Assembly: GCF_000308575.1 (NCBI RefSeq)
Contig: NZ_BAFZ01000161.1
Span: forward strand, 1 to 64,000
Reading direction: 5' to 3'
Source: Nocardia exalbida NBRC 100660
GTDB taxonomy: Bacteria > Actinomycetota > Actinomycetes > Mycobacteriales > Mycobacteriaceae
Length of the DNA: 64,000 bases
Below the pieces are notes generated by a model. That model did no database searches. It had not been told where the DNA came from and saw only the letters and a program-made list of their open reading frames with translations. Shown in pieces: positions 4,140-55,447 of this stretch (position 1 is the first letter of the stretch; every line of letters starts with the position of its first letter). The position numbers were made by a program, and so were the translations under genes.

Positions 4140-4716
4140 GAATGTCTCCTTCGCATCCCCGGGTTTCATGCACGCCCGGTAATTCGTGGCCCAGGTATCA
4201 GCCGGGACTCGCTGAACCGAGTGGGAGTCTATCCATGCTCTGCGAATGCTCGAAAGCCATTCCAGCAGAGACTGATTGGTCCAGATAGCAAGCCACACCG
4301 GCGGCGCTTCTCACCAGGCCGCAATGTTGAAGTGCCACCAATCAACAGTCCGCTCGCGCCCGCATGCCGTCTCGGGCATCACCGCCACCGTCGTCCAGAA
4401 CGATTCGAAATATGTCGATTCAACGGAGTGGGCGCGCCCATCACCGAATCGGACAGGATGTCCGGCAAGCGCGCAGCGCAATCTCCACGGTGGAGCAGTA
4501 CGAGAGCCGGGCCGGACGAGCGGCTCGGTTGAAGGCCGCCGAAGACGGATGGATAGTGTCGCGGACTCGTGTTGGAGGAACGTAGTGTTACCGCCGGGAA
4601 CCGCCGGCCCAGCCGTGGGTCGGTGACTCGTCGGCCACGGGTATCGGCGAGCGGGGTTCCCACTCGGACCGGCTGGATTTCCAGTTTCGAACCGGTGGAC
4701 CAGAGCGAGGATGGCA
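4140..4716. other. Gene-free spacer between amidase and HAMP kinase
   Basis: About 580 bases with no convincing coding frame on either strand. It separates divergent genes and must hold both promoters, but no clear -35/-10 pair or long inverted repeat was recognised. Confidence 0.4.
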
Positions 4717-9254
<4,538 letters not shown>

Positions 9255-9255
<1 letters not shown>

Positions 9256-11633
9256 TGACCGACTCGGACGCCACCGGCGCAGCAACCGCGATGACACCGA
9301 ACGCAGACTCGGCCGCGGAGCCCACCGTCACCCGCCTCGCGGCCACCGTGGAGCGGTTGCGTACGGAGATTCAGCGCGCTCAGGCCACCGCCGACGGTCG
9401 AGCGCTGATCGAGATGGCGAAGGGCGTGCTGGTCGAGCGGCTACGGTGTGGGCCCGCCGCGGCGGCGCGGCAGCTCGACGCCCTGGCCGAGCAAGCGGGT
9501 GTCACCTCGTTGGAGGTGGCCGTCGATCTGGTCAACCAAGCCGCGCAAGACAAAGTCAGCGCGGTGGTGGACGAGTTCCTGCTGCGTACCGCGACAGCGG
9601 AGAAGTCCTCGGCGGCTGTGCGATTGCGTACCGCGGAGAGCGGGTTGCTCGCGGCGGGCGACACCCAACACGTCGCGCAATCGGTGCTCGAACACGCCTT
9701 GGCCCCGCTGGGTGCCACGGCAGTGGCTATCTGGTCGGCGGGCCTCGACGCATCGCTGTCCCTGGCCGGTTTCGCCGGCATCGACCTACCAGAGGCCGAG
9801 CGGTGGCGGTACGTGCCACCCGGGGTGGTGACCCCGGCGCGGCTGGCGCTGGTCGAACGCCGGGCGCAGTGGATCGAGGATCTTCGTGTATCGGGGATTC
9901 CGTCGATAGGTGACCGCGACGGCGGCCGGGCAGCGATCCCCGCCGGCACCGGCGGCAAGTTGATCGGCGTGCTGGAGGTGTGCTGGCCGCAGCCCCTCGA
10001 ACCGCAGCCGCCTGGAGTACACCGGCAACTCGAGGCGCTGGCAGAGCTGTGCGCGCACACTCTGGAGTCGGACCTGTCCACCGCGGGTTCGCCGGTCCTG
10101 CCCGACGTCGCCGATCTCGTACTATTGGCCGACAGCCTGTTCGACCCGGCCCTGGTGCTGCTACCTCACCTCGACGGCGACGGCGCGCTCGCCGACTTCC
10201 GTATCCACCACGTCAACAGGTGCTTCATCGACCCGGCCGGCCGCCCACGCGGCCTGATCGACGGCACATTGCTGCTCGAGGTGTACCCGATGGCCGCGGG
10301 CGGGGGCCAGTTGTTCGAGCGGATCGAGCACGTCTTCGCTACCGGTGAGACCTACCGCGCCGAGCGGGTGATGTTGACCGAATTGGTCGGCCAGGTACCG
10401 CTGACCGTCCCGGTCGCGCTCAGCATCAGCCGTCACAGGGATGCCGTGCTCGTGGTGTGGCGCGTGGAGGACGAGACGGCGCGGCTGGCGGCGCTGCTGC
10501 AACACGCTCAGCGCCTAGGACGTGTCGGCGGGTTCGAGGAGAACGCGGCCACCGGCGAAATCACCTGGAGCAGCCAGCTGTACGCCCTCTACGGCCTGGA
10601 GCCTGCCGCCGACCCGATCCCGGTCGCGCAGCTGCCGAGTCACGTCCACGACGACGACTCGGAAGCGGTACGGGGATTCCTGCGAACCCTGCTGCGCTAC
10701 CGTCGCTCGGCCTCCACGGCGTTCCGTCTGATCCGGCCGAACGGCGACGCCCGTCATATTCGGATCATCGCCGAACCGGTGGTCGACACGGCGGGACACC
10801 TGCTCGCCATCCGTGGCGCCTACCAGGACATCTCCGCCCAGCACTGGACCGAGGTCGCGCTGTCGGCCACCCAAGACCGCCTCGCGCACAGCGAACAGCA
10901 GGCCGCCGAACAGAGCAGGCTGGCGCTGCAACTCCAGCAGGCGATCATGCCCGCTGCGCAGCCGTCCATCGAGGCGTTCGGTCTGCGCATCGCGGTGCGC
11001 TACCAGCCCGCCGACCAGGACTATGTGGTGGGCGGCGACTGGTACGACGCGGTGACGCTGCCGTCCAAGCAGATCCTGGTGTCGGTCGGCGACATCACCG
11101 GCCACGGCATCAAGGCGGCCACCGGCATGGTCGTACTGCGCAACGCTCTGCGCGGCCTCGCGGCCACCGGCGCCAAGCCGGGGCAGATGCTGACCTGGTT
11201 GAACCTGGTGGCACATCACCTGACCGACGACATCTACGCCACCGCCATCTGCGGCCTCTACGACCCCCAGACTCGGATACTGCGATGGGCTCGTGCGGGT
11301 CACCTGCCGCCGGTGCTGGTGCGCGCCGGACGGGCGTCCGCCCTGCCTCCCCCTGACGGGATGCTGCTCGGCGCTGTGGCGGAGACGACGTACGAGGAAG
11401 CCGAACTCCAGCTGGAGCCGGACGACATCTTCCTGCTCTACACCGATGGGCTGATCGAGCGCCGCGACCGGCTCTTGGACGACTGTGTGGAGCGGTTGCT
11501 CGCCATGTCTGCCCAGTTCGCCGGAAGCCTGGAAGACCGCCTGGACCATCTGCTCGATCACAGTGACGCCAACACCGACGACGACACCTGCGTGGTGGGC
11601 ATTCAAGTGGGACCGGGCGACGGCACCGGGTGA
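9255..11633 (+). CDS. ANTAR-GAF-PAS-SpoIIE (PP2C-type) phosphatase regulator
   Basis: Probable output of the HAMP kinase. The 792-residue protein has an N-terminal ANTAR-like three-helix segment (ALIEMAKGVLVERLRCGPAA), a GAF-like domain (about 120-270), a PAS domain (about 410-530, YALYGLEPA) and a C-terminal SpoIIE/PP2C phosphatase with the metal-binding motifs VGGDWYDAV, VGDITGHGIKAA, ARAGHLPPVL and LYTDGLIERRD. Family members dephosphorylate anti-sigma-factor antagonists. The ATG at 9255 shares its A with the TGA of the kinase gene (TGATG), indicating translational coupling. No anti-sigma pair lies nearby, so the target must be elsewhere. Confidence 0.9.
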
Positions 11634-20574: not shown

Positions 20575-23500
20575 GTGTTCAGCCGCATTGCCATCGTGAA
20601 CCGGGGCGAGGCCGCCATGCGCCTCATCCACGCCGTCCGAGATCTGGCTGCGGAGACCGCGCTGCCGATCGAAACCGTCGCCCTGCACACCGACGTCGAC
20701 CGCCACGCGACGTTCGTGCGAGAAGCCGACATCGCCTACGACCTCGGCCCGGCATCCGAGCGCCCGTACCTGGACCTGAAGGCGCTCGAGCGTGCGCTGG
20801 TGGAGACCGGCGCCGACGCCGCCTGGGTCGGCTGGGGTTTCGTCGCGGAGGATCCGGCGTTCGCGGAGCTGTGCGAACAGATCGGTGTCACCTTCATCGG
20901 CCCCAGCCCGGAGGCGATGCGCAAGCTCGGCGACAAGATCGGCGCGAAGCTGATCGCCGAGGAGGTCGGCGTGCCGGTCGCGCCTTGGAGCCGCGGTCCG
21001 GTCGAGACCGTCGACGCCGCCTTGGCGTCCGCGGCCGAGATCGGCTACCCGCTGATGCTGAAGGCGACCGCGGGCGGCGGCGGACGCGGTATCCGGGTGA
21101 TCACCGATGAGGCCGAACTCGTCGACGCCTATGAGCGCACTCGCCAGGAGGCCGCTCGGGCGTTCGGCAGCGGCGTGGTCTTCCTGGAGCGGCTCGTCAC
21201 CGGCGCTCGGCATGTCGAGGTCCAGGTGATCGCCGACGGCCAGGGAACCGCGTGGGCGCTGGGTGTCCGCGACTGCTCGGTACAGCGGCGCAACCAGAAG
21301 ATCATCGAGGAGTCGGCGTCACCGGTGCTGAGCCCCGAGCAGGCAGCCGAACTCAAGGCCTCGGCCGAGCGGCTGGCGATCGCGGTCGGTTACCGCGGAG
21401 CAGCGACCGTCGAATTCCTCTACCACCCCGGTGACGATCTCTTCGCGTTCCTCGAGGTCAACACCCGCCTGCAGGTCGAGCATCCGATCACGGAATACAC
21501 CACCGGTTTCGACCTCGTCCGGGCGCAGCTGCTGGTGGCCTCAGGAGGAAGGCTCGAGGGCGAACCCCCGGTCGAGCGCGGGCACGCCATCGAGGCCCGG
21601 CTCAACGCCGAGGACCCCGACCGCGATTTCGCCCCCGCCCCGGGCCGCATCGCGCGCCTGAACCTGCCTGCCGGTCCGGGTATCCGCGTCGACACCGGCG
21701 TCAGCGAGGGCGACACGATTCCCGCCGACTTCGACTCGATGATCGCCAAGATCATCGCCTACGGCCGTGACCGTGACGAAGCGCTGGGCAGGCTGCGCCG
21801 GGCGGTGGCGCAGACCCGGGTGGTCATCGAGGGCGGCGCGACGAACAAGAGCTTCGTGCTCGACCTGCTCAACCAGCCCGAGGTGATCGACGCCAGCGCC
21901 GACACCGGCTGGATCGACCGCGTCCGCGGCGAGGGCCGTCTCGTCTCGCATCGCCACTCGGCCGTCGCGCTCGCGACCGCCGCCATCGAGGCCTACGAGG
22001 AGGAAGAGCGGGTTCAGCGGCACCGGTTGCTGTCCACCGCCTCCGGTGGGCGTCCGCAGGTACAGCACGAGAGCGGTAGGCCGCTCGATCTGAAACTGCG
22101 CGGCGCGACTTACCGCGTGCGCGTCGCGCGCATCGGTGCCCATCGGTTCCGCATCGGCATCGAGGCCTGCGGCGAAATCCGCACGGCCGACGTCGACCTC
22201 GAGCGCTTCGATCGGCACACCGGGCAGATCGTGGTCAACGGCGCCCGCTACCGCTTGACCATCGGCACCCACGGGCCGATCCACCTGATCGACGTCGACG
22301 GTGTGACGCATCGGATCAGCCGCGACGAAGGCGGTATCGTCCGCTCCCCCGCACCCGCCCTGGTCGTCGCCACGCCGCTGGAGGTCGGCGCCGAGGTCGA
22401 GGCGGGCGCGCCGGTGCTCGTGCTGGAGAGCATGAAGATGGAAACGGTGCTGCGCGCGCCGTTCCGCGCTCGCTTGAAGGAGTGCGGCGTCTCCGTCGGC
22501 ACCCAGGTGGAGACCGGTGCGCCGTTGCTGCGACTGGAGCCGATCGCCGAGGACGACGAGGCCGAGGCCCCCGCGGCGACCGAGTCCGTGGAACTGGACC
22601 TGCCCGGCGAGCCCGGGCAGATCGAGCCGCACGAGCGCACCACCCGCGGTCAGCAGGACCTGCGCAGTCTGCTGCTCGGCTTCGACGTCGACCCGCACGA
22701 CGACCGCCGGGTGCTCGACGAATACCTCACCGCGCGCCGGGCTGCCATCGCGGACAACCGCAGGCCGCTGGCGGAGGAACTCGAGCTGGTGCAGGTCTTC
22801 GCCGACCTCGCCGAACTGACCCACAACCGGTCGTGGGACGAGGACGGCGACCAGGGCCATGTCCACAGTGCCCGCGAGTACTTCCACACCTATCTGCAGA
22901 GCCTCGACGTCGAGCGGGCCGGGTTGCCCGAGTCCTACCAGGCCAAGCTCGCCCTGGCGCTCGGGCACTACGGGATCACCGATCTGGAGCGCACCCCCGA
23001 CCTCGAAGCCGCGGTCTTCCGGATCTTCCTCGCCCAGCAACGCCCGTCCGACACCGCCGCGGTCATCACCACACTGCTGCGCGAGTGGCTGCAGGAGCCG
23101 GTTCCGGACCGGGCGCTGCGCGAGCCCGTCGGTCTCGTGCTGGAGCGGCTCGTGGCCACGACTCAGGTGCGCTTCCCCGTGATCGCCGATCTCACCCGCG
23201 GCCTGGTGTTCGCCTGGTACGGCCAGCCCCTGCTGCGGCGTAATCGCGCCCGCGTGTACACCAACGTCCGCAGGCACCTGCGCCACCTGGACGCGCACCC
23301 GAACTCCCCCGATCGCGGCGAGCGCATCTCCGACATGGTGCGCAGCACCGAACCGCTGGTGCGACTGCTCGGCCAGCGACTGGAGCGCGGCTACCCGGAC
23401 CACACCGTCATGCTGGAGGTGCTGACCCGCCGGTACTACGGCAACAAGGGACTCACCGGCGTGCACACCCACGAGGTGGGCGGCTGCACATTCGTGATCG

Positions 23501-26040
23501 CCGAGCGAGCGGGCTCGAGCCTGGTGTCCACCGCGGTGAGCTTCGACGCGCTCGACACCGCGCTGCGCGGGCTCACCGAACTGGCCGCTGGCGCCGCGTC
23601 CATCGACGCCGACATCTACCTCAGCTGGGAGAAGCAGCCCGGCGACTTCGACGCGATGGCGGCGGCGCTGCACGAGGTCATCGGCACCCACCAGTGGCCG
23701 AGCCAGGTGCATCGCATCACCGCAACGGTCGCGGGCAGCGGCGGCGCGGTGATGCACCATCACTTCACCTTCCGCCCGTCGGCCACCGGCATGGCCGAGG
23801 AGCGGCTGATCCGCGGCCTGCATCCCTACATCGCGCAGCGGATGCAGCTGGAGCGGCTGCGCAAGTTCGACCTCACCAGGCTGCCGTCCTCGGACGACGA
23901 CGAGATCTACCTGTTCCGGTGCGTCGCGAAGGAGAACCCGGCCGACGATCGGCTCATCGCGTTCGCGCAGGTGCGTGACCTGGCGGCGTTGCGCGAGCAC
24001 GACGGCAGGCTGCTCGCGCTGCCCACCGCCGAGAGCACCATCGCCACCTGCGTCGACTCGATCCGCCGGGCACAGTCGCAGCGGCCGTCGGCGAAACGGT
24101 TCAACACCAACCGCATCGTGATGTACATCTGGCCGCCGATCGACGTCACCCGGGCCGAGCTGCAGACCATCGGCGGACACGTGCTGCCCACCGCCGCGGG
24201 CGCCGGGCTGGAGGAGATCCTGCTCATCGCGCGGCAGCGGGACCCGGGCACCGGCGAGCTGACCAAGATCGCCGTCCGCATTTCGTTCGGCGCCACCGGC
24301 AGCACCGAGGTGACCGTCGGCGAGCCCACCGACGAGCCGGTCGAGCCGCTGGACGAGTATCGCCAGAAGGTGCTGCGGGCCAGCAGCCGCAACACCGTGT
24401 ACCCCTACGAACTGACCGGTCTGCTCGGTGATTTCGCCGAGTACGACCTCGACGAGAACCACAGGCTGGTACCGGTCGACCGGCCCAAGGGACGCAACAC
24501 CGCGGCCCTCGTCGCGGGCGTGGTCACCACGCCGACCGAGCGGCATCCGCAGGGCGTCACGCGGGTGGCGCTGCTCGGTGATCCGACGAAGTCGCTGGGC
24601 GCGCTGTCGGAGCCGGAGTGCCGCCGCGTGATCGCCGCGCTGGACCTCGCCGAACGGATGCAGGTGCCGTTGGAGTGGTACGCGCTGTCCTCCGGCGCGC
24701 GGATCTCGATGCGGTCCGGCACGGAGAACATGGACTGGGTGGCGGCGGCGCTCAAGCGCATCGTCGAGTTCACCCAGGACGGCGGCGAGATCAACATCGT
24801 GGTGGCGGGCATCAACGTCGGCGCGCAGCCGTACTGGAACGCCGAGGCGACGATGCTCATGCACACCAAGGGCATCCTGGTGATGACGCCGGACTCCGCG
24901 ATGGTGCTCACCGGCAAGCAGGCGCTCGACTTCTCCGGCGGTGTGTCGGCCGAGGACAACTTCGGCATCGGTGGCTACGACCGGGTGATGGGCCCCAACG
25001 GGCAGGCGCAGTACTGGGCGCCGAACCTGACCGCCGCGCGGGACGTGCTCATGTCGCACTACGACCACACCTACGTCGCGCCCGGCGAGCAGGCGCCGCG
25101 GCGAGCGCAGACCAGCGACCCCATCGATCGTGATGTCTCCGACTTCCCGCACGTCGCGGCGGACAGCGACTTCACGACCGTCGGCGAGATCTTCTCCGCC
25201 GCGAAGAACCGGGACCGCAAGAAGCCGTTCGATATCCGGACCGTGATGCGGGCGCTGTCCGACCAGGACCACCCGGTGCTGGAGCGGTGGGCGGGCATGG
25301 CCGACGCCGAGACCGCCGTGGTGCAGGATGCGCATGTCGGTGGCATCCCGGTGTGCCTGCTGGGCATCGAGTCGCGGGGTGTGCCGCGCCGCGGCTTCCC
25401 GTCCACCGACGGCCCGGACACCTACACCGCGGGCACGCTGTTCCCACGGTCGTCGAAGAAGGCCGCGCGGGCGATCAACGCGGCCAGTGGTAATCGACCG
25501 CTGGTCGTCCTGGCAAACCTGTCCGGCTTCGACGGCTCGCCCGAATCGATGCGGAAGCTGCAGCTCGAGTACGGTGCCGAGATCGGACGCGCGATCGTGA
25601 ACTTCCGCGGCCCCATCGTGTTCTGCGTGATCTCCCGGTATCACGGCGGCGCGTTCGTGGTGTTCTCGAAGGCGCTGAACCCGAACATGACCGTGCTCGC
25701 GCTGGAGGGCTCCTTCGCCTCGGTGCTCGGTGGCGCTCCGGCCGCCGCGGTGGTGTTCGCCGGTGAGGTCGACACCCGCACCGCGGCCGATCCGCGAGTG
25801 CGGGACCTGGAAGCGCGCGCCGCGAACGCATCCGGCACCGAGCGCGCGTCCTTGACCGCGGAACTCGACGAGATCCGGTCGTCGGTCCGGACCGAGAAGC
25901 TCGCCGATGTGGCCGCGGAATTCGACCGCGTGCACGATATCCGGCGCGCTGTCGAGGTCGGTTCGGTCGACGCCGTCATCCGCGCCTCCGAACTGCGGCC
26001 GCGCATCATCGAGGCCATCGAGGCGCGCCTGGCCGGGTGA
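20575..26040 (+). CDS. Single-chain biotin-dependent acyl-CoA carboxylase
   Basis: One 1821-residue chain carrying a whole biotin carboxylase system. Order: biotin carboxylase with ATP-grasp (about 1-450; FSRIAIVNRGEAAMRL, glycine loop KATAGGGGRGIR, EVNTRLQVEHPITE), a linker, a biotin carboxyl carrier domain with the biotinyl lysine in ESMKMET (Lys621), a long central helical region (about 670-1290), and a carboxyltransferase (about 1290-1800; SSGARI, GGVSAEDNFGIGGYDRVMGP). This order is that of eukaryotic acetyl-CoA carboxylase. Actinobacterial homologues carboxylate acetyl-, propionyl- or longer acyl-CoAs. The start is GTG behind a GA-rich region. Substrate range cannot be read directly. 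Confidence 0.9.
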   Translation: MFSRIAIVNRGEAAMRLIHAVRDLAAETALPIETVALHTDVDRHATFVREADIAYDLGPASERPYLDLKALERALVETGADAAWVGWGFVAEDPAFAELCEQIGVTFIGPSPEAMRKLGDKIGAKLIAEEVGVPVAPWSRGPVETVDAALASAAEIGYPLMLKATAGGGGRGIRVITDEAELVDAYERTRQEAARAFGSGVVFLERLVTGARHVEVQVIADGQGTAWALGVRDCSVQRRNQKIIEESASPVLSPEQAAELKASAERLAIAVGYRGAATVEFLYHPGDDLFAFLEVNTRLQVEHPITEYTTGFDLVRAQLLVASGGRLEGEPPVERGHAIEARLNAEDPDRDFAPAPGRIARLNLPAGPGIRVDTGVSEGDTIPADFDSMIAKIIAYGRDRDEALGRLRRAVAQTRVVIEGGATNKSFVLDLLNQPEVIDASADTGWIDRVRGEGRLVSHRHSAVALATAAIEAYEEEERVQRHRLLSTASGGRPQVQHESGRPLDLKLRGATYRVRVARIGAHRFRIGIEACGEIRTADVDLERFDRHTGQIVVNGARYRLTIGTHGPIHLIDVDGVTHRISRDEGGIVRSPAPALVVATPLEVGAEVEAGAPVLVLESMKMETVLRAPFRARLKECGVSVGTQVETGAPLLRLEPIAEDDEAEAPAATESVELDLPGEPGQIEPHERTTRGQQDLRSLLLGFDVDPHDDRRVLDEYLTARRAAIADNRRPLAEELELVQVFADLAELTHNRSWDEDGDQGHVHSAREYFHTYLQSLDVERAGLPESYQAKLALALGHYGITDLERTPDLEAAVFRIFLAQQRPSDTAAVITTLLREWLQEPVPDRALREPVGLVLERLVATTQVRFPVIADLTRGLVFAWYGQPLLRRNRARVYTNVRRHLRHLDAHPNSPDRGERISDMVRSTEPLVRLLGQRLERGYPDHTVMLEVLTRRYYGNKGLTGVHTHEVGGCTFVIAERAGSSLVSTAVSFDALDTALRGLTELAAGAASIDADIYLSWEKQPGDFDAMAAALHEVIGTHQWPSQVHRITATVAGSGGAVMHHHFTFRPSATGMAEERLIRGLHPYIAQRMQLERLRKFDLTRLPSSDDDEIYLFRCVAKENPADDRLIAFAQVRDLAALREHDGRLLALPTAESTIATCVDSIRRAQSQRPSAKRFNTNRIVMYIWPPIDVTRAELQTIGGHVLPTAAGAGLEEILLIARQRDPGTGELTKIAVRISFGATGSTEVTVGEPTDEPVEPLDEYRQKVLRASSRNTVYPYELTGLLGDFAEYDLDENHRLVPVDRPKGRNTAALVAGVVTTPTERHPQGVTRVALLGDPTKSLGALSEPECRRVIAALDLAERMQVPLEWYALSSGARISMRSGTENMDWVAAALKRIVEFTQDGGEINIVVAGINVGAQPYWNAEATMLMHTKGILVMTPDSAMVLTGKQALDFSGGVSAEDNFGIGGYDRVMGPNGQAQYWAPNLTAARDVLMSHYDHTYVAPGEQAPRRAQTSDPIDRDVSDFPHVAADSDFTTVGEIFSAAKNRDRKKPFDIRTVMRALSDQDHPVLERWAGMADAETAVVQDAHVGGIPVCLLGIESRGVPRRGFPSTDGPDTYTAGTLFPRSSKKAARAINAASGNRPLVVLANLSGFDGSPESMRKLQLEYGAEIGRAIVNFRGPIVFCVISRYHGGAFVVFSKALNPNMTVLALEGSFASVLGGAPAAAVVFAGEVDTRTAADPRVRDLEARAANASGTERASLTAELDEIRSSVRTEKLADVAAEFDRVHDIRRAVEVGSVDAVIRASELRPRIIEAIEARLAG

Positions 26041-49448: not shown

Positions 49449-49453
49449 CGGTA
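49449..49453. repeat. Target-site duplication CGGTA (left)
   Basis: CGGTA immediately before the left inverted repeat; the same five bases follow the right inverted repeat at 55443-55447. Five-base duplications are the rule for the Tn3 family. Confidence 0.9.
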
Positions 49454-49492
49454 GGCCCGGGAATCCTGAAGCTGTCAGGAAGTGCAAAGTAG
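49454..49492 (+). repeat. Left terminal inverted repeat of Tn3 element (39 bp)
   Basis: Begins GGCCCGGGAATCCTGAAG and ends GTGCAAAGTAG. Identical over all 39 bases to the reverse complement of 55404-55442. Confidence 0.95.
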
Positions 49493-49521
49493 AGGATCCT
49501 GAAGCTGGCCTCGGTGAAATC

Positions 49522-50139
49522 TCAGGCTCGTGGTGCAGCGCTGCTGATGATGCGGTGGATGGTGGAACGGCCGACGCTGTATTCCTCGGCGAGGTCTGCC
49601 AGGCTCGCGTCGTCGTCGGGGTCGTGGTAGCGGCGGTGGATCGTTTTCCGTGCGGCGAGCGGCAGTTTCGGCTGTTTGCCCTTGAGGCGGCCCTTCGCGC
49701 GGGCCTTGGCCATACCTTCGCGGGTCCGCAGGTGGTTTAGGTTGGCTTCGAATTCGGCGACCATGGCGAGGGTTTGCAGGAACAGCTTGCCGAACGGGTC
49801 GGCCCAGTCGTAGACCTGGCTGCCGAGCCCGAAGAGGACATCGCGCTCGCGCAGACTGGTGAGGATCTCGCCGGCCTCGGCCATGTTGCGGGCGAACCGG
49901 TCGAACTTGGTTGTGGTCAGCACCACTTGCCGTCCGGTGACGGCCGCCGCGGCGGAGGTGACCGCGGTCAGCGCGTTGTCCAAACCGGCCCTGTTCTTGC
50001 GGGTGGTGCCGGAGAATCCCTTGTCGATGAAGATCCGCTCGCGCGGTACCGCGAGGGCGAGCAGTTGCTCGGTTTGGATCTCGACGTCTTGTTCGTCGGT
50101 GGAGCAGCGTACGTATCCGACACGGAAGGGCTCGATCAC
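49522..50139 (-). CDS. tnpR: Tn3-type serine resolvase
   Basis: A 205-residue serine recombinase that resolves cointegrates. Catalytic Ser13 is in VGYVRCSTDEQD; other conserved parts are DKGFSGT, TKFDRFARN (active-site Arg region), FLQTLAMVAEFEANL, and a C-terminal helix-turn-helix (SLADLAEEYSVGRSTIHRII). Length is typical. The start is GTG at 50139, 30 bases inside a repeat-rich region that should be its own operator and res site. It lies 30 bases from the left inverted repeat. Confidence 0.92.
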   Translation of the reverse strand: MIEPFRVGYVRCSTDEQDVEIQTEQLLALAVPRERIFIDKGFSGTTRKNRAGLDNALTAVTSAAAAVTGRQVVLTTTKFDRFARNMAEAGEILTSLRERDVLFGLGSQVYDWADPFGKLFLQTLAMVAEFEANLNHLRTREGMAKARAKGRLKGKQPKLPLAARKTIHRRYHDPDDDASLADLAEEYSVGRSTIHRIISSAAPRA

Positions 50140-50169
50140 GTCGGAAATCGTTCCATAGGACGGGGGTTC

Positions 50170-50270
50170 ACCGGAACAGTTCCCGGAACACCTCTACGGA
50201 ACACCCGCGACCAGGGGCGGATTGTTCTCGCCGTGGTGTTCCGGTGGCCGTTCGCCTTACGGAACACTCC
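50170..50270. promoter_or_regulatory. Candidate res site (resolvase-binding repeats)
   Basis: The hundred bases upstream of the resolvase hold CGGAACA four times in direct orientation (about 50172, 50184, 50197, 50260) and once inverted (TGTTCCG, about 50237). Paired inverted copies at this position are what resolvase dimers bind in Tn3 res sites. Subsite borders cannot be fixed by eye. Confidence 0.6.
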
Positions 50271-50364
50271 ATATGGTGGCGAGTCGGCGAGCGCTTACCT
50301 CCGCACCGTGCCGTTTTTGATCGAATGCTGAACACGCCGTTGCTGCGGTGAATGTGACTCGGCC

Positions 50365-51048
50365 TCAGAGTTCACGGGCGCGCAGGTACTCGTCCAGGTC
50401 GGCGGCACTGGCGAGCATGGCGCGCCCCCGGGCGGACAGGCGGGCCTGCCAGTCATGCAAGGTTGACTCCAGCGGGGCGACGCCTCCCGCGGAGCGGACC
50501 TGGGCGATCAGCAGGGCGATCTGCTCCAGCGAGTAGCCGCCCCGTCTGAGCTGGTGGGCCAGGCGGATGTCCCGTACGTCGGCCGCGTTGTAGATCCGGT
50601 AGCCCGTCTGCCGATCGCGGCGCGGCTGGACCAGCCCGGCGTTCTCCCATTTGCGCAGGGTCGCAGGGCGCAGGCCGAGTCGTCTGGCCAGGGGGCCGAT
50701 GAACGTGTGGCCGCGTTCGGCCGGCACGGGTGCCAGCTCTCGGAGCGCAGCGTCGACGGCCCGGAGGGTGCGGCGGTCGTCGAGGAGCCTGCTGTGGCTC
50801 TCGTCGATGAGCCGCAGCGCGTCCTCGGTGGCACCCCGGTTGACCGCCTGCATGATCGAGGTGGCCATCGGGTGACCGTGCCCGGGCACGAGGGCGAGGA
50901 ACGCGCGCAGGGCTTGCGCGTGCAGCGGCGTGTAGGTGCGGTAGCCGTGGACGGTGCGTTCGGCGGCAGGCAGGATGCCTGCCTGCTCGTAGTTCCTGAC
51001 CGCCTGGGTGGACAGGCTGTGCTCGCGCGCCAGGTCCACTGGCCTCAT
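50365..51048 (-). CDS. MerR regulator with two HTH domains (TioE type)
   Basis: A 227-residue regulator with two MerR-type winged helices: LAREHSLSTQAVRNYEQAGILP with GYRTYTPLHAQAL near the N-terminus, and LARRLGLRPATLRKWENAGLVQPRRDRQTGYRIYNAADVRDIRLAHQLRRGGYSL further on. Double-HTH MerR proteins of the TioE group are known from actinobacteria. The ATG at 51048 follows GAGGA. It is divergent from the esterase by 91 bases and is its likely controller, perhaps inducible by the drug. Confidence 0.85.
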   Translation of the reverse strand: MRPVDLAREHSLSTQAVRNYEQAGILPAAERTVHGYRTYTPLHAQALRAFLALVPGHGHPMATSIMQAVNRGATEDALRLIDESHSRLLDDRRTLRAVDAALRELAPVPAERGHTFIGPLARRLGLRPATLRKWENAGLVQPRRDRQTGYRIYNAADVRDIRLAHQLRRGGYSLEQIALLIAQVRSAGGVAPLESTLHDWQARLSARGRAMLASAADLDEYLRAREL

Positions 51049-51139
51049 GGGATTCCTCACCAATTGAAGGTTCGTTGCGGTGGGAGCGGAATTTCCGGGA
51101 AAAAGTTTACACCGAGTGTTCAACGATACTGTTTAAGGC

Positions 51140-52315
51140 ATGGATATCAAGGACACGGCCTCGCCACTCGATGGCGCGAGTATCTCGGCATTCCTGGGGT
51201 CGCTTCCCACCCGGCCCCTGCTGCTCGGGCTGGGCGAGGCCAGGCACTTCGTGGGCGAGCTGGGCGAGTTGCGCAACGAGATCTTCCGACACCTGGTCGA
51301 GCACGAGGGCTACCGGTCGTTCGCCCTCGAGAGCGACTGTCTCATGGGCCTAGTAGTGGACGACTACATCGCGACGGGCGCAGGCACGCTCGATGACGTC
51401 ATGGAACGCGGCTTCAGCCACAGCTTCGGCGTCTCACCGGCCAACCGCGACCTCGTGTCTTGGATGCGGGCGTACAACAAGGAGCATGAGGAGAAGCTGC
51501 GGTTCTTCGGGTTCGACGGCCCCCTGGAATATTGGGCGGCGAGCCCGCGCCAGGCGCTCACCGCCCTTTATGCCCTCCTCGACGGCCCGCTCCCCCGCAC
51601 CGTGGTAACCGAGGAAACCCTCGACACGCTGCTGGGTGCGGACGACCGGTGGTCGAACGAGGCCGCGGCCATGGATCCGTCCCAGTCGATCGGCCGGTCC
51701 GCCGACGCCCAGCAGTTGCGGCTGATCGCCGACGACCTGGTGGCACTGCTCGACACACAGGGACCGCAGCTGAACACCGAGGACAGGGAGCGGGCGGCAC
51801 TGTACGGGCGCACCGCCACCGGCCTGCTCCGCTACCACTACTGGATGGCCGACGCGTCCCCGGCACGGTGGACCCGGCTGTCGGCGCTGCGGGACGCGAT
51901 GATGGCCGCCAACCTGCGTGCCATCGCCGAGAACGGCCCGGCCCTGGTCTTCGCCTCTAACCTCCATCTGCAGCGGAACAAGAGCCTCATGTCGTTCGGT
52001 GACCAGCAGTTGGAGTGGTGGAGCGCGGGGGCGATCACCGGGACACACCTGGGCGACCGGTACGCCTTCCTCGCCTCCGCCTTGGGCACGGCCGGCGACA
52101 ACACCCCGCCCCCCGACACCGTCGAGGGCATCCTGTCCACGCTCCCGTGGGACCACTGTCTCATCGACGCCCGCCGCCTGGCCGAGGCCATCACGACGCC
52201 CGCTCCCCGCATCTCCCACGATTTCGCCTATTTCCCGCTGAATCCGGCCCAACTCGACCTGATCGACGGCATCGTGTTCCTCAAGCAGGCTGTCAGGCTG
52301 GGTCGACCGGGCTGA
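51140..52315 (+). CDS. Erythromycin esterase family protein (transposon cargo)
   Basis: A 391-residue hydrolase of the erythromycin esterase (Ere) family, which opens the macrolide lactone ring using a metal-independent His/Glu mechanism. The key motif LGLGEARHF (Glu33, His36) aligns with the GEGAHF motif of EreA/EreB; ALESD, FFGFDGP and the late NLHLQRNKSL follow the family pattern. At 391 residues it is near the usual length. Preceded by a weak AAGG. Possible product is macrolide resistance, but homologues with other substrates exist, so activity is inferred. Confidence 0.85.
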   Translation: MDIKDTASPLDGASISAFLGSLPTRPLLLGLGEARHFVGELGELRNEIFRHLVEHEGYRSFALESDCLMGLVVDDYIATGAGTLDDVMERGFSHSFGVSPANRDLVSWMRAYNKEHEEKLRFFGFDGPLEYWAASPRQALTALYALLDGPLPRTVVTEETLDTLLGADDRWSNEAAAMDPSQSIGRSADAQQLRLIADDLVALLDTQGPQLNTEDRERAALYGRTATGLLRYHYWMADASPARWTRLSALRDAMMAANLRAIAENGPALVFASNLHLQRNKSLMSFGDQQLEWWSAGAITGTHLGDRYAFLASALGTAGDNTPPPDTVEGILSTLPWDHCLIDARRLAEAITTPAPRISHDFAYFPLNPAQLDLIDGIVFLKQAVRLGRPG

Positions 52316-52420
52316 CGCGCACACGCCTCGATCACTCCGTCATGGTCCTGACATGGTCGATGCAGCGGTCAGGCGTACCGTGCCGAACCGTCGGGAGGGT
52401 CGACCGTCCGAGTACACCCG

Positions 52421-55366
52421 TCAGCTGGCGACCCGTTCTCGGGTGAGGTCCAGGCGAGTGTCCATATCGAGCCGGAACCGGCCGTAAGGATTGATGTTCG
52501 ACCAGAACAGCGGGCTCAGTGCGCGGCGTTCGGTGTCGCCGACCAGATCGTGGAACTGCGGGTCTTCCAGGACGGCTTGCAGCAGAAGGGTATTGATGTG
52601 GACCATCGCCGATTGCAGTAGGTGCAAAGCGAGCATCGATACTTCGGCGTGCTCGCGGTCGGCGCCGGTGAGCTGGGAATCCTTGCCGTAGAACACGACC
52701 GTATTGGCGGAGTTCCAGTTCTCCACCACCTGCAACCCGCTGTTGATCTCCCTTCTGAGTTCTTCCGACGCCAGATAGTCGCAGGCGAAAATCGTTCTCA
52801 CAGCACGGCCGAGTTCTTCCAGGGCCTGGTAGGTGGGGTGTTTCGGGCCACCGCGGGTGAACCGCCGCAGGATCGACTCGCTCTCGGCTGTGCCCAGGCG
52901 CAGCGCGGTCGCGTATTTGACCATCTGGTCGTACTGCTGGGCGATGAGATCCCACCGGATCGGGCGCGTCAGCACCGGTCCCAGCTCGCCGTATACCGCG
53001 GTGTCGTCGGGCCGGTACAACCGGATCGAGCCGATGTTCTTCAGCCGGGGCAGCAGCTTGAACCCCAGCAGCTCGGTGAACGCGAACCCTACGACCGACG
53101 CGCCGTGAGTGTCGACGTAGTTGGCTTCGATCTCGGTGTCGGTGCAGTGCCGCAGCAGCCCTTCGATCATCGCCGCCACCTCCGAACTCGAACACGATTT
53201 GAGCTGGGAGTAGATGCAGACGCGGTTGCGCTCGACGTGCCAGTAGATCATCACCCCCGGGCCGCCGTAACGCTGGTGGTACTGGGTCATCAGATTCGAC
53301 TCCCAGGAGCCGAACTTCTTCGAATCGCTGGCACAGGCGGTGCCCGCACCCCACCAGTTCGGATCTCGGGCGGCGAAAGTGGCGTTCACCAGCTTCCTCG
53401 TCGCGCGGCGCAGGTTGTCGCGGGTGATGAAGTGCCGGCGCACATGCCGCAACGCGGCCTCGGACTCCTCATGCTCGCCGGTGTTCACGATCGCCCGGAT
53501 TCCCATGTTCGTTCCCAGAGCGAACAGGTCGAGCAGGAGCCGTCTTCGCAGCGTGTCGCGATCGATCACCTCCCGTGACGCCACGGAGGTGAACTCTGCG
53601 GTGAAGTCGGTGAGGAAATCGGTGTCTTTGAGCACATCGAGGAGATCGAGGGTTCCCCAACGCCTTGCGACCTCGGCCTTGATCTTCTCTAGATTCTCCG
53701 GCTCTGGCTGTTTGTCCAGCTTCGGCACGCTGATCCACTGCTCACCGCGCCGCCGCGTCAACCGGATACCGCCGGTGGTGTTCTCAGCGAGGCCAGTATC
53801 TAGGCGGGTCAGGGCCTCGCTCATGCGCTGCTTGAGCCCGGCGATGAATTCGGTCGGATCCAGCGGCTGGCGGATCGCGGCGTAGTGCACCTCACGGGCG
53901 GTATCGAAATCGCCGGGCAGATCGTCTTCGGGGTTGCGCCACCGGTTACCGCCCTCGACATAGATCTCGCGGCGGCGGATCGCGTCCCGCAACGCGACCA
54001 GCACGCACAGCTCGTACGGGATGCGCTCGACGCGGTCCTTCTCATCGACCACCGCCTCCCGCCACGCCTTGGGCACCACCCCATCGAGCGGGACGAGAGC
54101 GTGTTTGTCGTAGAAGCGGACCTTGCCGTCGATGCTCGCGTACCGCTGCAACAGCTCCATCGCGACCATGACCGGCCGGTAGGCGGTGTTGTTGCACCGG
54201 AAATCCAGCGCCGCCAACAACGCCGGCAGCATCCGTCGATAGTGGTTGGAGTACGAGCTGCGCAGCACGGTGCGTACCCGCGCCTGGAACACCTGATCGT
54301 TGGCCTTCGCCTCTTTCACCAGCTCCCGCAGCGTCTTCTCCCCGACCACCGGGTACAGGGCCTCGCGCACGATGTCATCGGGGTGGTCCACGGCCGCTTC
54401 GGCGAGGCGGAACAAGATGTTCTCCTTGCCACGCACTCGGCGCAGGTCCTCGGTCAGCTCCTTCTCCACTCGCCGATCCGCCCGCGTGCCGATCTTGTGC
54501 ACCAGCTCGATCAGCAGATCTACCAGCGCGTCGGTGATCTCTCCCGACCGGACCCAACACAACGCCGCCAGCAGCGTCAGCATGGTCGGTGCCGGCATAT
54601 CCCGCAGATCCGACGGGAACATGCGCGCTGCCCGCGCTCGCCAGGCATCGACCAGCTTGTCGCTGGCGTCGGCAAACAAGTCTGCGGGCAGCTCCAGCGC
54701 CCGCACCGCGGCCAGCTTGTCTACTTCCCGCAGCAGCGTCTCGAGACTGACCTTGCCCGGGTCGGACTTCAACTCCGCCAACAGATTCCGGCCACTTGCC
54801 AACGGCGCAGCACCGACAGCGACCAAGTTGTTCAACCGGTCGACCGACAGCTCACTCAGCCGTGAGACGGTCCGTTCGCAGAACTGTTTCTCGAAACTCG
54901 CCCGCGCCGACCCGATCAGCCGGTCGATCCGGCCAGGGGTCGTCGGTTCGATCCGCTCGGCCCGGCAGCGCACCAACAGCGCCTCACGCAGCTGCTCGTC
55001 ACGCAGCTCCACCGGGCACACCTCGGCCGCCAGCCAACCGGTGAGCTTGTCCTCGTCACCGACGCTGAACTCACGGAAGCCGTACACCGCGCGGATCTGC
55101 TCGCGGTGATACTTCGCCGACCGGCCCGACCACGGGTACGCGTCGAACTCGGCAGGATCGACCTTAAACTGCTCGGCCATATAGGAGACCACCGCAGGCG
55201 GAAACTCTTCCGGGCTACGAGGAAACCGAGCCTCCAGCTCGAAGAACTTCAGCAACAGGCCGAACCCGAGGCGAGTCGCGCCCGTCTTGTTCCCCACCCG
55301 CTGCCAGTCGCTCCCGACCAGCGTCCACGACCCGATCAGATCCTCGGTCGACCACTCCTGACGCAC
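52421..55366 (-). CDS. tnpA: Tn3-family transposase
   Basis: A 981-residue DDE transposase of full length for the family. Catalytic residues fit the Tn3 pattern: Asp681 ([10 protein letters not shown]), Asp752 (NYVDTHGAS) and Glu882 ([11 protein letters not shown]). The N-terminal DNA-binding part ([32 protein letters not shown]) recognises the inverted repeats. The start is GTG at 55366, 38 bases from the right inverted repeat. Converges with the esterase gene. No frameshift or stop was seen. Confidence 0.95.
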
Positions 55367-55403
55367 GCCCGGTCACGCTAGACCAAACCCGCCGCTGCCG
55401 AAG

Positions 55404-55442
55404 CTACTTTGCACTTCCTGACAGCTTCAGGATTCCCGGGCC
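55404..55442 (-). repeat. Right terminal inverted repeat of Tn3 element (39 bp)
   Basis: Perfect reverse complement of 49454-49492; ends CCCGGGCC before the right target duplication. Confidence 0.95.
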
Positions 55443-55447
55443 CGGTA
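55443..55447. repeat. Target-site duplication CGGTA (right)
   Basis: Matches 49449-49453. Confidence 0.9.

Follow-up and report, generated by a model that had tools for sequence, protein, structure and literature searches.

A complete Tn3-family transposon in Nocardia exalbida with a probable Ere-superfamily hydrolase and its divergent MerR-type regulator as passengers

For the erythromycin esterase EreC, a mechanism built on five residues (E47, H50, E78, R261, and H289) has been described (PMC7979712), and three of the residues (H40, E68, and H279 in EreA numbering) are reported to be conserved also in BcR135 and BcR136, two "succinoglycan biosynthesis" proteins of Bacillus cereus, of which BcR136 has the same fold and is reported to lack macrolide esterase activity (PMC6109786). 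A study published in 2025 searched 502,007 Gram-positive genomes with Ere queries and found no match at 40% identity and >80% coverage (PMC12704417), and in Nocardia cyriacigeorgica an erythromycin esterase (ereA_B, KEGG orthology) was counted among the macrolide resistance genes (PMC7355893). Here we describe a transposon that carries a gene of this superfamily in Nocardia exalbida NBRC 100660, located within a stretch of 64,000 nucleotides (contig NZ_BAFZ01000161.1, positions 1 to 64,000 of the forward strand) that is called the window below.

The transposon shows clear similarities to described systems, and there are also differences. It resembles Tn3-family transposons in its 39-bp ends, its 5-bp target duplication, and its serine resolvase with a resolution site (res), but its resolvase/res region and its transposase have separate nearest relatives. 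Tn4430 TnpA, the only transposase with a solved structure that was found, is comparable to the transposase of this element as a DDE enzyme over its whole length. The passenger enzyme shares its fold and mechanistic residues with EreA/EreC and EreB/EreD, but differs from them in its low identity to EreC (19–20%), in NCBIfam scores that lie below the cut-offs, and in a serine at position 273; it shares its fold with BcR135 and BcR136 as well, at 17–19% identity. Finally, pairs of a TioE-type regulator gene and an "erythromycin esterase family" gene in Streptosporangiales and Streptomyces share the palindrome block and, at loci that have the regulator, the divergent arrangement as well, with 78–90% amino acid identity of the enzyme in the 38 nearest loci, but no complete copy of this transposon surrounds them. 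Our preferred explanation, which we hold with a probability of about 0.8, is that the element, a complete Tn3-family transposon, reached its place upstream of a P450 gene by ordinary transposition and carries a regulated hydrolase cassette of two genes that came from a Streptosporangiales-like donor.

Structure of the transposon and its insertion site

The element occupies positions 49454–55442 of the window in the order tnpR (minus strand), res, regulator (minus strand), enzyme (plus strand), and tnpA (minus strand), and all four genes are intact. Its two terminal inverted repeats of 39 nt (49454–49492, plus strand, and 55404–55442, minus strand) are 100% complementary and within the approximately 38–40 bp expected of Tn3-family repeats. 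The 5-bp target duplication of this family is likewise present, with CGGTA on the left (49449–49453) and on the right (55443–55447) and one copy at the corresponding empty site. This empty site was found by joining the flanks minus one copy of the duplication: in G703, a genome of the same genus, the joined sequence has a 93% identical counterpart that crosses the junction, with 133 bp to its left and 1001 bp to its right, and a single CGGCA stands there at the target. To the left of the 133 bp, approximately 740 bp of window sequence is missing from G703 before similarity resumes. The joined flanks have a match of any kind in 14 of the 148 genus genomes, and besides the host's own genome only G703 covers the junction. 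The insertion postdates the divergence from G703, unless G703 has lost the transposon. We reason, by argument and without simulation, that perfect 39-bp ends together with an exact duplication are far beyond chance.

The tnpA gene (52421–55366, minus strand, GTG start) encodes a Tn3-family transposase of 981 amino acids, which scores 418 bits with PF01526 and 821.5 bits with the NCBIfam model transpos_Tn3 (cut-off 500). It aligns nearly end to end with Tn4430 TnpA (residues 25–967), and in this alignment the SD, DT, and E motifs coincide in their acidic, catalytic residues. The tnpR gene (49522–50139, minus strand, GTG start) encodes a serine resolvase of 205 amino acids (PF00239, 111 bits) that aligns with the Tn3 and gamma-delta resolvases. 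Beside it, at 50149–50267, lies a res array of TGTTCC/GGAACA half-sites whose outermost dyad, GTGTTCCG...CGGAACAC, is at 50236–50267, and the half-site block recurs in 10 related loci when these are aligned; both the resolvase gene and the res that belong to the Tn3 family are thus in place. An earlier note on this DNA had proposed a complete Tn3-family transposon at these positions, with an intact transposase, resolvase, and res region, and the ends, the duplication, the empty site, and the profile scores all bear this out. No description of this transposon was found in the titles and opening parts of abstracts of the papers retrieved on erythromycin esterases, TioE, and Nocardia Tn3-family elements.

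The passenger enzyme and its divergent regulator

The passenger enzyme, encoded at 51140–52315 (plus strand), has 391 amino acids and belongs to the Ere superfamily, with 144.5 bits against PF05139 (gathering cut-off 26.4). Its AlphaFold model (mean pLDDT 87.6, pTM 0.89) aligns with BcR135 (Z 33.5, rmsd 3.1, 360 residues), BcR136 (Z 31.5, rmsd 3.1, 350 residues), and EreC (6xcq; Z 30.1, rmsd 3.8, 360 residues), and the entry ranked after these three scores only Z 13.5. The EreC chain used is the H289N mutant, from which the EreC residue numbers were counted; H289 pairs with H276 of the enzyme and R261 with R251, and the complete mechanistic set of EreC corresponds to E33, H36, E64, R251, and H276, which are invariant in 45 of 45 aligned sequences. 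By contrast with this set, position 273, where EreC and the Bacillus proteins have the first His of the HNxH motif, varies: 24 of the 45 sequences have Ser (the window copy among them), 18 have His, and 3 have Gly. Furthermore, comparison with three homologues gives dN values of 0.061–0.073 and dS values of 0.26–0.28, and the resulting dN/dS of approximately 0.24–0.26 indicates that the gene has been under purifying selection. Judging from the model and the retained residues, the protein is likely a hydrolase. PADLOC returned no match of any kind for it.

The divergent gene at 50365–51048 (minus strand) encodes a TioE-like regulator of 227 amino acids with two MerR helix-turn-helix (HTH) domains in one chain, since PF13411 and PF00376 each match two stretches. 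Its start is most likely at 51048 and not at the TTG at 51123 that appears in the mechanical list of open reading frames (ORFs). A homologue in the plasmid record NZ_CP108163.1, with the same gene order, is annotated as TioE family. These results agree with the earlier proposal of an Ere-family gene under a double-HTH MerR regulator. A PADLOC match of the regulator to a mad1-family HTH model (2.9e-13) was taken as shared HTH similarity.

Between the two genes, a conserved block at 51103–51139, the presumed operator, contains the palindrome TTCAACG-ATAC-CGTTGAA, here TTCAACGATACTGTTTAA, which ends a few bases before the ATG of the enzyme gene; inspection for a promoter by eye gave no convincing -35/-10 pair. 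Positions 51104–51140 have a mean conservation of 89% in 42 other sequences (41 loci of close or related enzymes and the native copy of the host), compared with 72% for positions 51065–51103. In eight genomes that were chosen because they hold Ere-family genes, the pattern GTTCAANGATANCGTTNAAG, with up to two mismatches, gave eight matches in seven of the genomes, each within approximately 100 nt of an Ere-family gene, and the reversed pattern, used as a control, gave 0. Because the palindrome marks only Ere-family genes in the genomes searched, the pair appears to be a module of one regulator for one gene, with a reserve for the homologues that the pattern misses.

Separate origins of the passenger pair and the transposon backbone

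The passenger segment, within its outermost limits of DNA similarity, spans 50333–52329 (element positions 880–2876), and the loci that resemble it are mainly those of Streptosporangiales. Contigs from 84,980 species were scanned by exact peptide patterns of the enzyme, a procedure that catches close relatives only, and 44 loci were obtained. Thirty-eight of these encode enzymes with 78–90% amino acid identity and come mostly from Nonomuraea, Microbispora, Streptosporangium, and their relatives, plus one each from Pseudonocardia and Micromonospora; the DNA of the passenger segment is 83–90% identical to theirs. The other six, at 54–59% amino acid identity, are from Streptomyces (five) and Nucisporomicrobium (one). 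In a tree of 82 enzymes, whose bootstrap had not fully settled and whose midpoint root serves for drawing only, the window copy falls inside a mainly Streptosporangiales clade of 45 rows (100/100), within which its placement is poorly resolved, and the native homologues of the genus form a separate clade of nine rows (100/100) that includes the second copy of the host, on its contig C105. These relationships indicate that the pair is foreign and was probably derived from a Streptosporangiales-like donor, that is, from another actinobacterial order.

Homologues of the enzyme at E ≤ 1e-40 occur in 129 of 148 genus genomes, and when every match with E ≤ 0.001 is counted, 89 of the 394 class genomes have one. 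The best identities within the genus are 100% in the host itself, 80% in G738, 67% in G698 (a partial match at a contig end), 60% in G749 (a fragment), and otherwise 38–50%. In G738, a pair of this kind (86% identity for the regulator and 80% for the enzyme) stands in 17 kb of sequence that matches neither the ends nor the genes of the transposon, and the cassette therefore probably entered the genus more than once. The native pair of the host (L089, 6820–8037 and 8151–8861, on C105) has an enzyme with 41–44% amino acid identity and a regulator with 56%; it keeps HNxH and the left arm of the palindrome and lies near ORFs that resemble, by eye, a Y-family polymerase and BlaI.

The earlier note had regarded a unit of this build as relevant to the spread of resistance, but spread of the element as a unit is not what the comparisons reveal. 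The host genome, a draft assembly of 164 contigs, has one complete copy, none was found in any other of 301 family genomes, and none of the 44 enzyme loci has, within flanks of at most 6 kb per side, a complete tnpR of this element or both of its ends. Tn3 transposase matches occur in three of the 44 (a fragment in L047, 61% in L050, and 31% in L060). At L050 (1093–7155; Nonomuraea turkmeniaca), a Tn3 transposase with 61% amino acid identity and one related end stand close to a regulator that is truncated and to a match that covers the full length of the enzyme. This end has 11 mismatches, and L050 is the sole locus of the 44 with an end at ≤14; 20 shuffled 39-mers gave 16–19 in one locus. At L057 (5041–5127; Spirillospora albida), a 51-bp resolvase remnant, 86% identical in nucleotides to tnpR, lies approximately 105 bp from the regulator in the order and orientation of the transposon, and it may be what is left of a transposon that once surrounded the cassette.

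The backbone has a history of its own. Among 72,556 plasmid records, 26 (22 from Rhodococcus and 4 from Nocardia) have loci with approximately 85–89% nucleotide identity to the tnpR/res region, and related genomes have such loci as well; however, the transposases that share a fetched stretch with such a tnpR are only 26–28% or 46% identical to TnpA of the window. The nearest relative of tnpA, in G134 (89% amino acid identity), is not accompanied by a related tnpR in the sequence retrieved there, and two further relatives (L079 and L080) have resolvases at 38–48% identity. A separate piece of the end of tnpA, a 3' fragment, is found elsewhere in the host genome (L088, 8094–8252, on contig C4). 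Modular backbones are usual for the Tn3 family, and by these comparisons the backbone of this transposon is modular too. In all 14 tnpR loci fetched (L012–L025), similarity ends at element position 813–816 (window 50266–50269), right after the outer res dyad, and some shorter matches to the tnpR region (n = 5) end at other positions. Entry of the passenger by recombination inside res was considered and rejected: in L012–L025, similarity spans the entire outer dyad and stops just after it, so that no crossover within res is visible.

As for the ends, their 33-base core, with ≤3 mismatches, is present in 9 of 150 genus genomes, the host included. In G751 (L133, 5236–11588), two ends of the same type lie approximately 6.35 kb apart, with the duplication ACCAC, a different passenger, and a tnpA remnant, and this is a decayed sister element. 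The occurrence of the core in nine genomes together with the pair in G751 indicates that ends of this type mark a transposon lineage that is at home in the genus. The inner half of the terminal repeat differs in the tnpA relative of G134 and in a solitary end of this type elsewhere in the host (L087, 7905–7943, on contig C115), and its inner 20 bases (TGTCAGGAAGTGCAAAGTAG) are also found beside related tnpR genes. A first reading of the ends as a mosaic of two lineages was not kept; the tnpR-side ends of the Rhodococcus and N. farcinica loci have no matching partner near their transposases, and for this reason they may be truncated. In addition, two ends of the same type lie approximately 3.2 kb apart in G278 (L090, 6534–9742, on contig C422) around an ORF that resembles, by eye, an epoxide hydrolase, with no match to the window transposase; this is perhaps a non-autonomous carrier.

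Outside the transposon, the window contains a very long hybrid histidine kinase with seven HAMP stretches, a GAF domain, and a response regulator (4711–9255), followed by the gene of an ANTAR/PAS/SpoIIE-phosphatase protein (9228–11633). A single-chain biotin-dependent carboxylase of 1821 amino acids, in which biotin carboxylase, biotinyl, and carboxyl transferase domains are fused, is encoded at 20575–26040.

Possible roles of the passenger pair

If the preferred explanation is right, TnpA would move the element by replicative transposition and TnpR would resolve the cointegrates at res. The double-HTH MerR protein would bind the palindrome at the start of the enzyme gene and, upon contact with a small molecule, turn on or release that one gene, and the enzyme would then hydrolyze an ester or lactone of that small molecule, for self-protection or for use.

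Several observations weigh against this explanation. The enzyme has Ser273 where EreC, BcR135, and BcR136 have His. The palindrome of the window is altered at two of the seven positions of its right arm, and the search pattern misses the homologue of G461, the second copy in each of G315 and G450, and the host's native copy; binding of the regulator to this putative operator is inferred from their neighborhood. Furthermore, an adjacent regulator is complete in 25 of 43 enzyme loci (L027–L069) and partial in 2, and in the other 16 none is found above the cut-off (L027, L028, L029, L031, L033–L035, L037–L039, L041, L048, L049, L053, L055, and L059), yet the block is still kept in these 16, where the regulator may act from elsewhere or may have been lost. 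The draft state of the assembly, with its 164 contigs, could also lead one to suspect that the element is an error of assembly or that its repeats pair by chance. However, this is hardly credible in view of the exact duplication with its matching empty site in G703, the single contig that reads through both flanks, and the intact state of all four genes.

The question of what the enzyme acts on is of a different kind, and the earlier note had answered it with a macrolide-inactivation gene. The Ere-superfamily membership, the fold, and the residues stand, but the macrolide label came with the family name: the NCBIfam EreA, EreB, and EreD models score 29.9, 39.9, and 33.1 bits on the enzyme, none passing the cut-offs of 750, 750, and 800. 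A genuine macrolide esterase would open the lactone ring of 14- to 16-membered macrolides under a macrolide-induced regulator, and the EreC fold with its five mechanistic residues, the enzyme's apparent regulator of its own, and the ride on a transposon would all fit such a role. The homologues, moreover, are in genera reputed to be antibiotic producers, and the pair has reached the genus at least twice (in the window and in G738), which also speaks for a resistance function. However, BcR135 is structurally nearer to the enzyme than EreC is (Z 33.5 against 30.1), a His is replaced by Ser273, and a diverged homologue is already present in most genomes of the genus. Since BcR136 shares the fold and is reported to lack macrolide action (PMC6109786), and since the enzyme lies far outside the Ere models and is only 19–20% identical to EreC in the structure alignment, a macrolide esterase is not established, and we consider it unlikely both that the compound is a macrolide and that the regulator responds to one. 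The pair could instead be a physiological module of actinobacteria, for endogenous ester turnover or a stress function, that was picked up by accident and confers no resistance. Its wide occurrence, in the class at any degree of similarity and in the genus with good matches, is consistent with this, as is the fact that no antibiotic gene cluster stood out in the few neighborhoods viewed by eye, with no dedicated search. On the other hand, its distribution outside the genus is patchy, it probably entered the genus more than once, and its regulator appears to serve one gene, and a physiological module is a tentative alternative that we regard as less likely than not.

With regard to the family as a whole, one may think of the pair as a self-contained, mobile, inducible antibiotic-hydrolysis unit, in which an Ere-superfamily resistance enzyme is carried by a transposon in a Gram-positive host and represents a large unrecognized subfamily of actinobacterial enzymes, many of which have Ser or Gly at the otherwise conserved His position beside the catalytic His, and in which the double-HTH MerR protein would sense a lactone or ester antibiotic; we regard this extended proposal as rather improbable. 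The apparent one-gene regulon means that the inducer could be sought with a simple reporter. Should the enzyme prove to hydrolyze an antibiotic, an inducible resistance unit would already have crossed from one actinobacterial order to another, and the label "erythromycin esterase family", which many actinobacterial genes bear, would acquire a tested meaning. If the enzyme hydrolyzes none, the transposon would provide a case in which a family name misleads resistance annotation.

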